Notes under the pieces: generated by a model | Told to the model about the DNA's origin: nothing | Seen by the model: only the letters and a program-made list of their open reading frames with translations | Database searches by the model: none | DNA from: Prochlorococcus sp. AG-311-D23 | Lineage (GTDB): Bacteria > Cyanobacteriota > Cyanobacteriia > PCC-6307 > Cyanobiaceae | Length of the DNA: 45,245 nucleotides | Assembly: GCA_003284445.1 (NCBI GenBank) | Contig: QBVH01000012.1 | Span: forward strand, 1-45,245 | Direction: 5' to 3' | Part shown: positions 13,101 to 27,528 of the stretch, piece after piece | Layout of the letters: each line of letters starts with the position of its first letter | Position numbering within the stretch: the first letter of the stretch is position 1 | Position numbers and translations under genes: made by a program

Positions 13101-13230
13101 AAGTATTCAATGAATTAATTATCGCATCATATTTTCTACTTTTGGCAGCATATTAATTTTTTATAGTAATAGTTCAAACCTTTGCTTTACTTATTAATCT
13201 TAGTTCGTTTTGAATGAAAATCTGATTTTG

Positions 13231-14088
13231 ATGAAACTCGCTTTTATTGGTCTTGGCGCTATTGGGAAGCCGATGTCAGATCGTCTGATTGATAATGGTT
13301 ATGATTTGAATTTATATAAGAGAGATAAACTAAATAGTGGTGATCAAAAGAAATATTTTATTGACCCAATAGAAGCCGTTAGAGACTGTGATGGTCTTTT
13401 GATTTGTGTTACTGATGATAATTCAGTTGAATCTGTTTTGTTTGGAAAAAATGGTGTTGCAGACTCACTAAAGCCAAATTCTTTTGTAATTGATTTCTCT
13501 ACAATAAGTCCTAAAAAATCTATTTCTATACATAAAAGATTAGTCAAAAAAAATATCTTTTATGTTGACTGTCCAGTTTCAGGAGGTACAGAAGGAGCTC
13601 ATAAAGGTTCACTCTCTTTGTTTGTTGGTGCAAGCAAAAAAGAATGTTTATCTTTTGAACATATATTTGAAGTGCTTGGCCAATCAATTAATTATTTTAA
13701 TGGTGTAGGTAAAGGCCAACAAGTCAAAGCTCTTAACCAGATTTTAGTTGCTGGAACATATGCAGCAGTAGCTGAGGCAATGAAATTAGGGAAATTACTT
13801 GAGTTGCCCATGGATGATGTGGTTGCTGCTTTAAAAGTTGGAGCAGCTAATTCATGGCCATTAGAAAATAGATCTAAAGCAATGTTGATTGATAAACATC
13901 CATTGGGATTTAAATTAGAGTTGCATCATAAGGATTTGTCTATTGCCATTGATTTAGCAAAATCTATAAATATTGACTTACCCATTGCATCTAAAGTAAA
14001 AGAAATTGAGTACAGATTAATGCAGGCAGGTTTAGGTGAATTAGATGTTTCTGTACTTCATAGATATATCTCAGCAGAAGAAAAATAG
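13231..14088 (+). CDS. Beta-hydroxyacid dehydrogenase (3-hydroxyisobutyrate dehydrogenase / tartronate semialdehyde reductase family)
   Basis: NAD(P)-dependent oxidoreductase of the 6-phosphogluconate dehydrogenase superfamily. The Rossmann fingerprint GLGAIG is at residues 7-12, the substrate signature DCPVSGGTEGAHKGSL at about 113-128, and the catalytic Lys166 and Asn169 in KGQQVKALNQ. The C-terminal all-helical dimer domain ends with AGLGELDVSVLHRY. An in-frame TTG at 13210 could add 7 residues, but the ATG at 13231 puts the Rossmann strand (MKLAFIGLG) where the family has it. Length is then 285 residues. The substrate cannot be told from sequence: 3-hydroxyisobutyrate, tartronate semialdehyde (glycerate route) or succinic semialdehyde are the usual options. 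It is monocistronic by spacing. Confidence 0.85.
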   Translation: MKLAFIGLGAIGKPMSDRLIDNGYDLNLYKRDKLNSGDQKKYFIDPIEAVRDCDGLLICVTDDNSVESVLFGKNGVADSLKPNSFVIDFSTISPKKSISIHKRLVKKNIFYVDCPVSGGTEGAHKGSLSLFVGASKKECLSFEHIFEVLGQSINYFNGVGKGQQVKALNQILVAGTYAAVAEAMKLGKLLELPMDDVVAALKVGAANSWPLENRSKAMLIDKHPLGFKLELHHKDLSIAIDLAKSINIDLPIASKVKEIEYRLMQAGLGELDVSVLHRYISAEEK

Positions 14089-21899: not shown

Positions 21900-22673
21900 A
21901 TGTTTAATTATGATATTTTTTCTCAAATTGTTTTGGGAATTATATCTTTATTTTCTAATTTTATTTCTGCTTTGTCTGGAGGAGGGGCAGGATTAATTCA
22001 ACTTCCAGCCCTTTTATTTTTAGGATTACCGTTCTCTAAAGCATTGGCAACTCATAAGGTGGCTAGTGTTGCACTAGGTTTAGGCGCTTCCATTCCTCAT
22101 CTAAAGCGAAGTAGCTTAAAAATAAACTATGCTTTTTTGATATTAATTTCGGGCATACCAGGTGTTTTGTTAGGAGCCTATACATCATCCATTTTACCTG
22201 GTAATTTTTCTACTACCTTATTAGGTTTATTGACTTTATTTCTTAGCTTTTACTCTATAAAGCAGAAAAATCTTGGCAGATCAAACCAGAAATTATCAAT
22301 CAATAAGTTAAGGGTAATTATTGGCTCATTTGGTCTTTTTATTATTGGTTTTTTCAATGGATATCTTTCATCTGGTACTGGATTATTTGTGACAATATGG
22401 ATGATAACTATATTTGACTTATCTTTTTCTAATGCTGTGGCCTATACCTTGATTTTTGTTGGTATTTTTTGGAATGGTATTGGAGCTTTATCTTTAGGAA
22501 TGACCGGAAATATTATTTGGAGTTATATACCCGTTTTGATTTCGGGTTCTCTTTTAGGTGGATACCTAGGAGCTAAATTCTCAATAATTAAAGGAACAAA
22601 ATTCATTAAAATTGTATTCGAATTAGTATCTTTTTTTGTTGGATTTTCGTTACTTGTTAAAGGGTTTTTATGA
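21900..22673 (+). CDS. TauE/SafE-family permease
   Basis: 257-residue polytopic membrane protein with about eight segments in two homologous halves. The N-terminal half has the family's GGGAGLIQLPALLFLGLPF and ALATHKVASVALGLG. The second half repeats the pattern with YLSSGTGLFVTIWMITIFD. Members export or import sulfonates, sulfite or other organic anions. The substrate here is not predictable. It stands alone, convergent with gpgS by 23 bases. Confidence 0.85.
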   Translation: MFNYDIFSQIVLGIISLFSNFISALSGGGAGLIQLPALLFLGLPFSKALATHKVASVALGLGASIPHLKRSSLKINYAFLILISGIPGVLLGAYTSSILPGNFSTTLLGLLTLFLSFYSIKQKNLGRSNQKLSINKLRVIIGSFGLFIIGFFNGYLSSGTGLFVTIWMITIFDLSFSNAVAYTLIFVGIFWNGIGALSLGMTGNIIWSYIPVLISGSLLGGYLGAKFSIIKGTKFIKIVFELVSFFVGFSLLVKGFL

Positions 22674-22696: not shown

Positions 22697-23884
22697 TTAT
22701 GAGCAGCCCGCTTTTTCTAAATCATCTTGTAATTTACTCTCACAGTCTAATACCCTTGCCCAACATGGTAATTGCTGCTTTACCGGTGATTCAAGGAATT
22801 TATTGATTGCAGGCCTTAATAGTTTTCCAAATGTATGAACTGCTAGTTCCTCTTTGTGTCTACTGTAAGGCAAAGAATTGACTGAGGAATCTAAACTAAA
22901 TTGTTTGACTCTATCTTCTCCTGCTCGTCTATATAAAACCTCCAAGTTTGCCAATTGGGAACTTGTAAGTGTTCTTGCCTCATGTTCCATTAAACCTCTT
23001 AAAACACTGGAAAGAATTTCTGTGGACATTTTTTGGAGACCTTCATTAGGTTTTAAACCTATTTCTTTGTGTTTGTGGTCGAAAATCCCGAGATCGACTT
23101 GTGCGATTCTTGATATCCTTACGTTTTTATAAACCTCTGAGAGAAGCCCTATCTCTAACCCCCAGTCACAGGGGATCCTTAAATTCATTGCTAAGTCTGT
23201 AGTAAATGCAAACTCTCCAGCTAATGGATATCTAAAAGATTGTAAATATTGGAGAAATGGCACATTTCCCATCAATTGTTCCAAACTTGATAGAAGTGGA
23301 CCTACAAATAATCTTGTAGCTCTACCTTGAAGTGCATTTGTCTCAAGAGATAGACGACTGTAAAAGGCTTTTACATAAGAAATCCCATTTGATTTTTCTA
23401 ATAAAGGGCTCAACATTCTTGCTGGATACTTAGAGTTGAATGTTCTTATATCAGCATCAAAAAGTGCTACAACTTCAGAGCTTTTTGTTGCCACTCCTAC
23501 TCCTTGCCATACAGCCCATCCTTTGCCAGGAACACCTAATAAATCTAGTCCATTTTTCTCTTGGTCTTTAAGCAATTCAATAACCGCTGGACTATTAGTC
23601 CATTGGACGTGAACTGGATAAGGCATTTCTTGAAAGAAATCCCTTGCTTTCACTACCTCGTCTTTATTGCTTGCAGATAAAGCTATGACTAGTTGATTTA
23701 AATTTTTTAATTCTTTTAAAGTGCTTCTTATAAGTTTCAATGCTGGCCTACTGAACTCATCGAATAGGCATGGAATAAGTATTGATGTTGGCCGTTTTAA
23801 TAGGTCTTTATTCAATTGAGATACTGGATCTTTTGCTAGTCCGTACTCATGAATAGTTGTGATTAAACCTTGCTGAAAGTCCAT
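22697..23884 (-). CDS. gpgS: Glucosyl-3-phosphoglycerate synthase
   Basis: Family GT81 glycosyltransferase: NDP-glucose plus 3-phosphoglycerate gives glucosyl-3-phosphoglycerate, the first step to the compatible solute glucosylglycerate. The 395-residue protein has the GT-A opening TSILIPCLFDEFSRPALKLI, then GVPGKGWAVWQGVGVA, and the metal-binding DxD as Asp143-Ala-Asp145 in ALFDADIRT. The segment RYPLAGEFAFTTDLAMNLRI and the acceptor-loop region around IPCDWGLEIGLLSEV are typical. It is divergent from the phosphorylase gene, with 71 bases between starts, which probably carry both promoters. The phosphatase partner (gpgP) is in the opposite operon. Confidence 0.92.
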   Translation of the reverse strand: MDFQQGLITTIHEYGLAKDPVSQLNKDLLKRPTSILIPCLFDEFSRPALKLIRSTLKELKNLNQLVIALSASNKDEVVKARDFFQEMPYPVHVQWTNSPAVIELLKDQEKNGLDLLGVPGKGWAVWQGVGVATKSSEVVALFDADIRTFNSKYPARMLSPLLEKSNGISYVKAFYSRLSLETNALQGRATRLFVGPLLSSLEQLMGNVPFLQYLQSFRYPLAGEFAFTTDLAMNLRIPCDWGLEIGLLSEVYKNVRISRIAQVDLGIFDHKHKEIGLKPNEGLQKMSTEILSSVLRGLMEHEARTLTSSQLANLEVLYRRAGEDRVKQFSLDSSVNSLPYSRHKEELAVHTFGKLLRPAINKFLESPVKQQLPCWARVLDCESKLQDDLEKAGCS

Positions 23885-23955
23885 TCAAAAAAAAAGTTTT
23901 ACAGATTCAAGGTGGGAGCTACGATGAGGTAGAGATGATTGGTTTTCTTTAAAGA

Positions 23956-25707
23956 GTGTCTGAGTTGGATAGTAAATTAGATGAGCTGAGATTGTCTCTC
24001 AGAGAAATTTATTCTGAGCACTCTGAACAAGAAATCAATTCAGTGTGGTCACAATTGTTGCAGATTCTCGATCCATTTTGTGTTAACCAAGACACTGATG
24101 AATTAGAGACTGAATCAATTTGGGACTCTTCAAGTGTTGTTTTGATTACTTACCCAGATTCAATTTATAGGAAAGATGAATCAACTTTAAAAACATTGAA
24201 TGAATTTGTTAAAAATAGATTAAGTGGCCTTTCCTCAGTCATACATGTTTTGCCATTTCTTCCCTCTACAAGTGATGGAGGGTTTGCAGTCTCTAATTAT
24301 GAAAAAATTGAAGATACCTTTGGAAATTGGAATGATTTAAAGGATTTATCAAGTAAGCACAAAATAATGGCAGATCTTGTTTTAAATCATGTCTCTTCTT
24401 CCCATCCATGGGTTCATCAATTTATAAAATCAGAAGATCCTGGTTCTTCTTACATTGTTGCTCCCTCTGAGACTCATGTTTGGGAGAATGTTATTAGACC
24501 CAGAAATTCATCCCTCTTTACTGACATCAATACTAACCAAGGCTTTAAGAATGTTTGGACAACCTTTGGGCCAGATCAGGTTGATGTTGATTGGAGAAAT
24601 CCCAATATTCTATTAGAGTTTTTGAGATTATTGGTTAGATACATAACTAATGGAGCAGATTGGATTCGACTCGACGCAATTGCATTTATTTGGAAGGAGC
24701 CCTACACGACTTGTTTACATTTAGATCCTGTACATTCAATAGTTAAGCTTCTAAATAAATCCCTGAAGATTATTAAACCTTCGGCTGTATTAATTACCGA
24801 GACTAATGTTCCCGAGAAAGAGAATCTTTCATATTTGATTGAAGGAAATGAAGCCAACCTTGCTTATAACTTTACTCTACCTCCTTTGTTATTAGAAGCT
24901 ATTTATACTGGTAAAACAGATTTGTTGAATAGTTGGTTATCTACTTGGAATGAGTTGCCAAAGAACACATCTCTTCTCAATTTCACTTCTTCACACGATG
25001 GTATTGGATTAAGAGCACTAGAAGGAATTATGGACGATCAGAGAATACATAATCTCTTGGTTGAATCAGAGAAACGCGGAGGATTAGTAAGTCATCGTCG
25101 CCTGTCAAATGGAGAAGATCAACCTTATGAGTTAAACATTAGTTGGTGGAGTGCGATGTCTAGCGAAGGCTCAGATAATACGGTATTTCAATTCGATCGT
25201 TTTCTGTTAAGTCAACTATTTACTCTATCTATAAAAGGTGTACCAGCTTTTTATCTTCCATCTGTATTAGCTTCTCCTAATGATCTAGATTCATTTAAAA
25301 AAACAGGGCAAAGAAGAGATTTAAATCGAGAAAAATTTGAAGCTAACAAATTACTTGAGGTGCTTAAGAACTTTAATTCTCCAGCTAGTAAAAATATTTC
25401 ATACCTCACCCATATTGTTAAAGTCAGGTCAAGACTTAAAGCTTTTCATCCTGAGGCGAGTATGGAATGTATCTCATCAAATATAGCTAATTGTGTAATT
25501 CTTAAGAGAGGTTTGAATGAAGATAGTGTCTATGTTATTTGTAATATGTCCAATAAATTTTTAAGTATTTCTCCATTAAATCAAATAAATTCAATAGATT
25601 TAACTTCAGATAAACGTTTACTAGATAATATTTCTGGTTCTTATTTTAATACTGATACTTTTGAACTTAATCCTTATCAGGTAGTTTGGCTTACATTAGC
25701 TGATTAG
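23956..25707 (+). CDS. GH13 subfamily 18 glycoside phosphorylase, probably glucosylglycerate phosphorylase
   Basis: 583-residue alpha-amylase-fold enzyme of the sucrose phosphorylase group, often named sucrose phosphorylase by homology. The beta/alpha barrel shows SVIHVLPFLPSTSDGGFAV and IMADLVLNHVSSSHPW. The nucleophile is Asp240 in WIRLDAIAF, the acid/base Glu282 in LITETNVPE, and the third carboxylate Asp348 in FTSSHDGIGLR. GQRRDLNREKF near the end is typical of the subfamily. GTG 23956 is the start. Some subfamily members phosphorolyse glucosylglycerate instead of sucrose. The neighbours (gpgS, gpgP and D-glycerate kinase) make that substrate more likely: glucosylglycerate plus phosphate gives glucose 1-phosphate and glycerate. 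That specificity is inference. Confidence 0.88.
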   Translation: MSELDSKLDELRLSLREIYSEHSEQEINSVWSQLLQILDPFCVNQDTDELETESIWDSSSVVLITYPDSIYRKDESTLKTLNEFVKNRLSGLSSVIHVLPFLPSTSDGGFAVSNYEKIEDTFGNWNDLKDLSSKHKIMADLVLNHVSSSHPWVHQFIKSEDPGSSYIVAPSETHVWENVIRPRNSSLFTDINTNQGFKNVWTTFGPDQVDVDWRNPNILLEFLRLLVRYITNGADWIRLDAIAFIWKEPYTTCLHLDPVHSIVKLLNKSLKIIKPSAVLITETNVPEKENLSYLIEGNEANLAYNFTLPPLLLEAIYTGKTDLLNSWLSTWNELPKNTSLLNFTSSHDGIGLRALEGIMDDQRIHNLLVESEKRGGLVSHRRLSNGEDQPYELNISWWSAMSSEGSDNTVFQFDRFLLSQLFTLSIKGVPAFYLPSVLASPNDLDSFKKTGQRRDLNREKFEANKLLEVLKNFNSPASKNISYLTHIVKVRSRLKAFHPEASMECISSNIANCVILKRGLNEDSVYVICNMSNKFLSISPLNQINSIDLTSDKRLLDNISGSYFNTDTFELNPYQVVWLTLAD

Positions 25708-25711
25708 CCTT

Positions 25712-26521
25712 ATGAAAAATAATTCTAAATATTGGATAGTTACAGATCTTGATGGGACATTAATGGATGAAGACTACGATATTTCTCCTGCCAAGAAAAC
25801 TTTAAAATTGTTGGCGGAATTAAATATTCCTGTAATACCTTGTACAAGTAAAACTGCTTCTGAAGTTAGATACTTTAGAAAAGAGAATGCATTGACAGAT
25901 CCTTTTATTGTCGAAAATGGAGCAGCTGTTTATGGATGCTATGAACAAAATTCGTCAGAATGGGAATTGATCTTAGGAAAAAGTTATACTGAATTGAAAA
26001 TTATATTATTTAATATATCTAAAAAAGTTAAATACCACTTAACACCATTAAATGATTTAAGCAAAAAACAAATTTTTGAACTTACTGGTTTATCTGATCA
26101 AGGCATTATTAGAGCTTTAGATAGGCGATGGAGTGTTCCTTTCTTAAATCCTCCTGATGATGTTTTCGAAAAAGTAAAGCTTATTTGTGATTCCTTTAAT
26201 GTTCATGTTTTTAAAGGAAATAGAATGAGTCACTTGCTTTCTAGTGAAAGTCATAAAGGTCAAGCTGTTAATAAATTAAAGGCTTATTTACAGAATAATG
26301 ATGTAAAGATTATTGCACTGGGTGATTCACAAAATGATCTTCCTCTACTTGAATATGCTGATATATCTATCGTTATTCCTGGGAAAAATGGTCCAAATAA
26401 GTATCTAAAGAACGGTATCGATAATGGTTCTTTTAGATTGGCAAATGCCCCTCACGCAGAGGGGTGGTCAAATAGTGTTGAGAATGTTCTTAAGGATTTT
26501 AAGGATTTTAAGGATTTATGA
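25712..26521 (+). CDS. gpgP: Glucosyl-3-phosphoglycerate phosphatase (MpgP-like, HAD superfamily)
   Basis: 269-residue HAD phosphatase of the mannosyl/glucosyl-3-phosphoglycerate phosphatase group. Motif I is VTDLDGTLMDEDYD with catalytic Asp12 and Asp14. Motif II is in IPCTSKTASEVRYFRKE, the Lys of motif III is in SHKGQAVNKL, and motif IV is ALGDSQNDLPLLEYAD. The IIB cap includes the family signature FIVENGAAVYG. It removes phosphate from glucosyl-3-phosphoglycerate to yield glucosylglycerate. It begins 4 bases after the phosphorylase stop and overlaps the kinase start by 4 bases. The C-terminal DFKDFKDL is encoded by three copies of a 9-base repeat. Confidence 0.9.
   Translation: MKNNSKYWIVTDLDGTLMDEDYDISPAKKTLKLLAELNIPVIPCTSKTASEVRYFRKENALTDPFIVENGAAVYGCYEQNSSEWELILGKSYTELKIILFNISKKVKYHLTPLNDLSKKQIFELTGLSDQGIIRALDRRWSVPFLNPPDDVFEKVKLICDSFNVHVFKGNRMSHLLSSESHKGQAVNKLKAYLQNNDVKIIALGDSQNDLPLLEYADISIVIPGKNGPNKYLKNGIDNGSFRLANAPHAEGWSNSVENVLKDFKDFKDL
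26492..26517 (+). repeat. Three near-exact 9-base repeats at the gpgP/kinase junction
   Basis: aaggatttt at 26492-26500 and 26501-26509, then aaggattt at 26510-26517 directly before the kinase ATG at 26518. Each copy carries a Shine-Dalgarno-like aagga. The same bases encode DFKDFKDL at the end of gpgP. The last copy is close to the kinase ATG, so the tract may both vary by slippage and act as the ribosome-binding site. Confidence 0.8.
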
Positions 26522-27528
26522 AAGATAAAGAAATTAATTATGATTTGAATCATATTTTCTCAAAGGATATAAGGGATAATTTTCTTTTTCCTCTTGATAC
26601 TTATCGTTTATTCCTTGAAGGATTGTCTATTAATCCTTCCCTCTTTTATCAGAAATGGTCTGATGTTAATTTACAATCAACTATTGATAAATATTGGAAG
26701 CCAAATCAAAAATTAGATTGGAAATGGTCGTTATCATTTCCATTTTTTTCTCTTTTAGAAAATTATATAAATGCTTTTAATGATCCAATAATAATAGGTT
26801 TTTCAGGGCTTCCTGGCTCTGGAAAATCTACTCTTGGATTTTGGATTGATAGTGTAGCTAAAGAACTATCTTTAGATATAAAGGTTATATCTTTGGATGA
26901 TTTTTATTTACCTGGCCAAGAAATGGACGTCGCAATAACTGATAATCCATGGGATGTTCCTAGAGGTTTTCCAGGCAGTCATTCTTTAGATTTATTAAAT
27001 CAATCATTAGACGTTTTTTTAAAGACTGGTGTTTTAAATAGTCCGACTTTTGATAAGTCTTTAAGAGATGGGAAAGGAGATAGATCAGGATGGTGCGATT
27101 CAGAACCCAGAGTTTTAATTTTGGAGGGATGGTTCGTAGGCTGTGAACCTATTTCAGATTTATCGAAAATAGACGACTTGGCTGAAGATAAATTTAATTT
27201 GTCATTGAGTCAGAGTGAAAAAGAGTATCGAATTTTGATTCAAGAATCACTGATTGAATATAGTAAAATTTGGGAAAAATTTGATAAGATTTGGCATCTT
27301 AAGTCTTCTCAATTTAATAATACAATTCTTTGGAAATCACAGCAAGAAGGAGAAATGATTAAATTAAAAGGATCGGGTCTAAAAGGCAATAATTTAACTA
27401 ATTTTATTCGAATGATTCAAACCTCTATTCCACAGCAGTCTTTTTCTCTTATTAATTCAGATACGATAGTTGAAATTAATCAAGATCGTAGGATTAATTT
27501 TCTAAAGACTAGTAACTACCGTTTTTGA
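26518..27528 (+). CDS. glyK: D-glycerate 3-kinase (plant/cyanobacterial GLYK type)
   Basis: 336-residue P-loop kinase phosphorylating D-glycerate to 3-phosphoglycerate, the last step of photorespiration. Walker A is GLPGSGKST (97-105). Further conserved blocks are VISLDDFYLPGQEMDVA, NPWDVPRGFPGSHSLDLL and LILEGWFVGCEP. An N-terminal domain of about 80 residues is also found in the cyanobacterial group. In this position it would recycle the glycerate released by phosphorolysis of glucosylglycerate into 3-phosphoglycerate, the GpgS acceptor. ATGA overlap with gpgP indicates coupling. Confidence 0.9.
   Translation: MKDKEINYDLNHIFSKDIRDNFLFPLDTYRLFLEGLSINPSLFYQKWSDVNLQSTIDKYWKPNQKLDWKWSLSFPFFSLLENYINAFNDPIIIGFSGLPGSGKSTLGFWIDSVAKELSLDIKVISLDDFYLPGQEMDVAITDNPWDVPRGFPGSHSLDLLNQSLDVFLKTGVLNSPTFDKSLRDGKGDRSGWCDSEPRVLILEGWFVGCEPISDLSKIDDLAEDKFNLSLSQSEKEYRILIQESLIEYSKIWEKFDKIWHLKSSQFNNTILWKSQQEGEMIKLKGSGLKGNNLTNFIRMIQTSIPQQSFSLINSDTIVEINQDRRINFLKTSNYRF

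Follow-up and report, generated by a model that had tools for sequence, protein, structure and literature searches.

The window analysed here, a stretch of 45,245 nucleotides (contig QBVH01000012.1 of assembly GCA_003284445.1) from Prochlorococcus sp. AG-311-D23, carries a four-gene locus very probably responsible for the turnover of 2-O-alpha-D-glucosylglycerate (GGA), a compatible solute, through its synthesis, breakdown and recycling. Sequence comparisons strongly support the assignment of the central enzyme, a member of glycoside hydrolase subfamily GH13_18, as a glucosylglycerate phosphorylase (GGaP) and not a sucrose phosphorylase (SP). The gene gpgS for glucosyl-3-phosphoglycerate synthase (positions 22697–23884, minus strand; 395 aa) is divergent from three plus-strand genes: those for GGaP (23956–25707; GTG start, 583 aa), for the HAD-IIB phosphatase acting on glucosyl-3-phosphoglycerate, gpgP (25712–26521; 269 aa), and for a class III (plant/cyanobacterial type) D-glycerate 3-kinase, GLYK (26518–27528; 336 aa). 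The stop codon of the GH13 gene is four bases from the start of gpgP, and gpgP and GLYK overlap in ATGA; the open reading frame coordinates thus bear out the tight divergent operon described in the initial annotation. Gene content, gene order, family membership, signature residues and co-occurrence were read directly from the genomes, and on these we base what is proposed below about substrate specificity, direction of flux and physiology.

Among proteins of solved structure, the chains nearest to the GH13 protein are GH13_18 sucrose and glucosylglycerol phosphorylases (best E-value 8e-45), and the alignment predicts D240 as the nucleophile, E282 as the acid/base and D348 as the transition-state stabiliser. 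Characterised GGaPs are marked by a (T/S)ETN motif at the tip of beta strand 5 and by a Glu in loop A, which replaces the Gln typical of sucrose, sucrose-6-phosphate and glucosylglycerol phosphorylases (PMC7178133, PMC6720575). Both marks are found in the window protein, as T281-E282-T283-N284 at the end of beta strand 5 (plus-strand codons 24796–24807), which includes the acid/base, and as E392 of the loop-A sequence QPYELN (codon 25129–25131, plus strand). The protein was aligned with two sets of sequences. The GGaP-type set consisted of cyanobacterial homologues, Escherichia coli YcjM, which is a characterised GGaP (PMC7178133), and homologues from Enterobacter and Qingshengfaniella plasmids; the other set comprised two solved SPs, two plasmid-borne proteins annotated as gtfA, and the glucosylglycerol phosphorylase (GGoP) 7xdq. 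The TETN signature occurs in all 20 GGaP-type sequences and in none of the SP/GGoP set, whose members have other residues at beta strand 5 and YQ in loop A. Together with the loop-A Glu and an invariant RPR triplet in loop B (R181-P182-R183 in the window, plus-strand codons 24496–24504), it is common to all GGaP-type sequences including YcjM; the triplet alone was also found in one gtfA. The window GGaP aligns over its full length with YcjM (31% identity), and in the phylogenetic tree the SP/GGoP sequences form one branch split from all GGaP-type sequences with support of 100/100. The branch of the amylosucrase outgroup (length 6.0) was too long for rooting, and only this split was used. An identity as GGoP was rejected, the loop-A motif VGAIYQ being absent in the comparison with 7xdq.

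It could still be argued that the enzyme is an SP which degrades the other compatible solute, sucrose, and that its proximity to gpgS and gpgP reflects shared osmotic regulation. Prochlorococcus does make sucrose (PMC11631117), solved SPs are among the nearest chains, and the best NCBIfam model for the protein is that of SP, TIGR03852, albeit with a score (191 bits) far under the cut-off of 334. However, the SP motifs are missing, N(L/V)D(I/L/V)YQ in loop A (NGEDQPYELN in the window) as well as PEIHEH at beta strand 5, whereas those of GGaP are present, and the gene tracks gpgS across genomes and is lost together with it. We consider this explanation extremely unlikely. The earlier suspicion that the GH13 enzyme is probably not an SP but a GGaP is thus supported by signature residues, by co-occurrence with gpgS and by synteny. 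Several matches in the phage collection (H31–H40; OR848242.1, OR846769.1 and others), named Listeria phage LM 4-11-1 or LM 4-14-1, also bear GGaP-like genes, of several kinds; these records appear to be metagenomic contigs grouped under a single phage name and not cases of phage-borne GGaP.

The distribution of the genes was followed in 272 Cyanobiaceae genomes, a total that includes the window's own genome beside those at least 90% complete (sample genomes are denoted by G numbers), with an E-value of at most 1e-100 taken as a strong GGaP match. All 162 Cyanobiaceae genomes with GGaP contain gpgS (Fisher test, 1e-71, with relatedness ignored), and the phosphorylase without gpgS, a combination proposed in the initial annotation as evidence against its reading, was accordingly seen in none of the 162. 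Such a genome would not have been decisive, since E. coli K-12 has the YcjM locus without gpgS. Among 146 genomes drawn evenly from the phylum, the 13 with GGaP are identical to the 13 with gpgS, eight of them outside Cyanobiaceae and spanning four families, and none has gpgS alone; some of these genomes have the pair at widely separated positions, which shows that the link between them is not only physical. Joint presence and absence is also apparent within genera: G133 and G262 are without either gene in a genus whose other members have both, and G284 carries the pair in a genus otherwise without strong matches. Only four Cyanobiaceae genomes carry gpgS without GGaP, namely G041, G049, where gpgS is truncated, and G176 and G178, in which this state is probably due to assembly breaks. 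An alphaproteobacterial plasmid from a saline-soil host contains GGaP, gpgS, an HAD-IIB phosphatase gene and galU in a row.

For the two genes assigned to GGA synthesis, matches to family models and structures agree with the names. The gpgS product matches GpgS_Meth of NCBIfam (E-value 3.8e-117; 391 bits, under the equivalog cut-off of 700), PRK13915 (107 bits, under the cut-off of 262) and solved chains of GpgS or close kin (E-value 1.3e-15), and it is 94–97% identical within the genus and 63–78% across Cyanobiaceae. The gpgP product passes the MPGP-type equivalog model NF001217 (436.8 bits, cut-off 373) and also matches MpgP structures. In Synechococcus WH8102, GpgS and GpgP are encoded by SYNW2436 and SYNW2434, with SYNW2435 between them (PMC2874817); the two genes flank a single gene at the position which GGaP occupies in the Cyanobiaceae loci that we read. 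The WH8102 type of locus differs from that of the window in that GLYK is located elsewhere in the Synechococcus-type genomes compared and inside the operon in Prochlorococcus. Table 4 of PMC9606707 puts gpgP of strains NATL1A and MED4 at locus tags remote from gpgS, unlike every Prochlorococcus operon read here, in which gpgP adjoins GGaP; a different HAD phosphatase may possibly have been reported there as gpgP.

The order gpgS (minus strand), GGaP, gpgP and GLYK (all plus strand) is held in 78 of the 80 named Prochlorococcus loci, the remaining two being interrupted by contig ends, and chance neighbourhood of the four genes was rejected on this ground. GLYK had no Pfam match at an E-value of 0.001 and was recognised through the solved D-glycerate 3-kinases 7xpc (E-value 4e-14) and 6ckg (7e-14). 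It belongs to the same P-loop kinase family as Arabidopsis GLYK, the class III D-glycerate 3-kinase that acts in photorespiration (PMC2063504), and its predicted product is likewise 3-phosphoglycerate; it differs from the plant enzyme in being encoded inside a GGA operon. This membership, in which GLYK follows gpgP, is found only in Prochlorococcus. In Synechococcus-type genomes with compared coordinates gpgS, GGaP and gpgP stand together and GLYK is 0.7–1.5 Mb away from GGaP. The kinase gene is present in 257 of the 272 Cyanobiaceae genomes, 97 of these without GGaP; in G049 it stands beside the truncated gpgS, GGaP and gpgP being gone, and in G042, G046, G047 and G103 it is all that remains of the locus genes. 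Two apparent cases of GGaP without GLYK (G209, G215) were rejected as assembly breaks, GGaP being at a contig end. GLYK is a shared enzyme, not one dedicated to the GGA cycle. From the tight coupling of the genes the initial annotation had argued for one function. For the kinase the argument is too strong: since GLYK is near-universal, unlinked in the Synechococcus-type genomes compared and persistent after decay of the GGA genes, coupling alone is no proof of a single function.

Glycerate sources other than GGaP were sought in 13 genomes with family models, which unusual enzymes may escape. Full-length glcD (G044, G047, G122, G264) and a full-length flavin mononucleotide (FMN)-dependent glycolate/lactate oxidase (G003, G005, G007 (window's genus), G042, G045, G225, G227) alternate across the picocyanobacterial genera, and neither was found by these models in G138 and G167. 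A gene resembling that for tartronate-semialdehyde reductase occurs in 11 of the 13 genomes and is missing from the same two, which retain GLYK. The genus of G138 and G167 probably represents high-light Prochlorococcus, judging by the closeness of its GGaP to loci from MIT 9302 and other such strains; in the high-light strain MIT9312 an independent study found no complete 2-phosphoglycolate route (PMC9723591). In the window, the plus-strand gene at 13210–14088 encodes a beta-hydroxyacid dehydrogenase whose best model is 2-hydroxy-3-oxopropionate (tartronate semialdehyde) reductase (E-value 1.8e-56, below cut-off), so that glycerate might have a second origin here; the gene is 8.6 kb from gpgS, and it stands near the GGA locus in the window's genus and elsewhere in other genera. 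Each of the 13 genomes has at least one plausible source of glycerate for GLYK: photorespiration alone in G042 and G047, GGaP alone in the two genomes G138 and G167, and both in the others, a pattern which fits a shared kinase.

If GLYK were an ordinary photorespiratory enzyme without a role in salvage, brought next to the GGA genes by the chance of genome shrinkage, its broad distribution, its separate location in the Synechococcus-type genomes compared and its retention without GGA genes would be expected. Such a chance does not readily account for the ATGA overlap in the window and the order conserved in all intact Prochlorococcus GGA loci examined, nor for the retention of GLYK in G138 and G167, which, like MIT9312 (PMC9723591), are short of photorespiratory steps, here the genes for glycolate oxidation and tartronate semialdehyde reduction. 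Furthermore, none of the Prochlorococcus and Synechococcus genomes tested yielded a class I glycerate kinase (G236, which is without GLYK, did have one), and class II was found in none of 21 genomes tested; no other class of glycerate kinase being present in these genomes, the glycerate released by GGaP would be without another known fate. We therefore regard a purely photorespiratory kinase as unlikely. The absence from G138 and G167 of the photorespiratory steps searched, with GLYK kept, suggests that the GGA cycle is the main client of the kinase there. It is conceivable, at somewhat less than even chances, that high-light Prochlorococcus generally lost the steps yielding photorespiratory glycerate, and that the kinase, photorespiratory elsewhere, was transferred into the GGA operon, was retained there and now serves essentially GGA salvage, its glycerate coming mainly or entirely from GGaP. 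G138 also encodes another 2-hydroxyacid dehydrogenase (327 aa), which could act as a hydroxypyruvate reductase and weakens the case for GGaP as the only source. This change of client is the only fresh idea of the present analysis.

In the cycle proposed, GpgS would join glucose from nucleoside diphosphate (NDP)-glucose to 3-phosphoglycerate, and GpgP would remove the phosphate to give GGA. When GGA is no longer wanted, GGaP would cleave it with phosphate into glucose 1-phosphate and D-glycerate by double displacement via D240 with E282 as acid/base, sparing one activation relative to hydrolysis. GLYK would then convert glycerate and ATP into 3-phosphoglycerate, which may enter central carbon metabolism or return to GpgS; the kinase would also take photorespiratory glycerate, a possible additional or sole source in many genomes. 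By the established biochemistry of these families, a full turn of GGA consumes one ATP at the GLYK step and one nucleoside triphosphate in activation, and both arms running together would therefore be wasteful. Of the closed cycle envisaged in the initial annotation, the locus itself closes only the part that concerns glycerate; recharging of glucose 1-phosphate needs a pyrophosphorylase encoded elsewhere. The suggestion made there, that such a loop would store carbon and reclaim it at no expense of nitrogen, would match the role described for GGA. GGA is a major solute of Prochlorococcus NATL2A, and dark-tolerant NATL2A cells lower their transcripts for synthesis of glucosyl-3-phosphoglycerate (G3PG) and raise those for recycling (PMC11631117), opposite changes that fit separate control from divergent promoters. 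GGaP is reversible (PMC11009771) and might instead be mainly synthetic, making GGA from glucose 1-phosphate and glycerate of photorespiratory or other origin and thereby bypassing GpgS and GpgP; photorespiratory glycerate is possible where glycolate oxidase or dehydrogenase and tartronate-semialdehyde-reductase-like genes occur. However, GGaP is always accompanied by gpgS in Cyanobiaceae, which makes a bypass redundant, the co-operonic GLYK drains glycerate and so favours phosphorolysis, and the transcript changes in dark-tolerant cells point the same way, all of which renders a mainly synthetic GGaP very unlikely.

Three observations weigh against the turnover proposed. First, the bifunctional GH13_18 enzyme XpGP accepts both sucrose and glycerate (PMC11009771), and the window enzyme might accordingly have some side activity on sucrose. 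Second, G041 (L116:6497-10246) has open gpgS (395 aa), gpgP (274 aa) and GLYK (334 aa) and only fragments of about 100 aa of GGaP, and is a case of real GGaP loss; GGA synthesis is thus not strictly dependent on GGaP. By its gene content, a strain of this type should make GGA and be unable to phosphorolyse it. Third, gpgP, a gene of synthesis, is in one unit with the genes of breakdown, a placement which the simple picture of two arms leaves unexplained.

A plus-strand gene for a TauE/SafE-type membrane transporter (21900–22673; PF01925, E-value 4e-38) is convergent with the adjoining gpgS and, from its position, is possibly a member of the locus; it is probably the 'putative transporter' of PMC11631117. 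The locus might serve to take up and use GGA released by other cells, with TauE/SafE as the importer, more than to turn over an internal osmolyte; such a role was put forward for dark-tolerant NATL2A in the company of Alteromonas (PMC11631117). The adjacency of tauE and gpgS in the window's genus is in line with this; however, it is confined to the window's near relatives, which account for 12 of the 80 Prochlorococcus loci, and to G045, tauE being absent from this position at nearly all other Prochlorococcus copies, and gpgS and gpgP indicate that the cells synthesise GGA of their own. Uptake as the principal role appears quite unlikely.

The window belongs to a draft genome (G000) that is 76% complete and 1.47 Mb in size. 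At the GGA locus, AG-402-B05, AG-402-O21 and similar Prochlorococcus single-cell genomes are its nearest named relatives, and it probably falls within the low-light I (NATL) group. An alignment of 13 loci showed that the divergent region between gpgS and the operon (23885–23955, 71 bp) contains a block, GCTACGATGAGGTAGAG in the window, well conserved within the genus; an inverted CTAC-N6-GTAG block with strong conservation within the genus is present in this region. No counterpart of the window block could be recognised in the other genera read, and a family-wide operator was rejected, conservation being at the genus level only. In G175, one contig (L102:4542-19090) contains GGaP-gpgP-GLYK twice in opposite directions, with one GGaP copy truncated, which points either to an inverted duplication or to a chimera formed during amplification.

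The arrangement itself is not new, both GGaP (2017) and the Prochlorococcus operon (NATL2A, 2024) having been published. GGaPs (EC 2.4.1.352, GH13_18) of Meiothermus silvanus and Spirochaeta thermophila and YcjM of E. coli have been described (Franceus 2017; reviewed in PMC7178133) as enzymes with strict GGaP activity whose genes keep company with gpgS, gpgP and glycerate kinase (PMC7178133). The window protein shares with them the subfamily, TETN and the loop-A Glu, as well as this gene company. It differs from YcjM, to which it is 31% identical, in standing on a cyanobacterial branch, and the ycjM locus, a sugar-catabolic operon without gpgS and gpgP, is unlike that of the window. Closest is the 'glucosylglycerate metabolism operon' of NATL2A with its adjacent transporter, for which breakdown to glucose 1-phosphate and 3-phosphoglycerate was proposed (Coe 2024, PMC11631117); as far as that text tells, it is the same operon, with no difference in kind. 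Coe 2024 interprets transcripts and makes no mention of photorespiration or of the independent distribution of the kinase. GGA serves the most abundant phototroph of the nitrogen-poor ocean as an osmolyte and carbon store that contains no nitrogen, and a known sink for it corrects automatic 'sucrose phosphorylase' annotations and the metabolic models. The double role of the kinase would couple osmolyte turnover with photorespiration via a single metabolite, glycerate.

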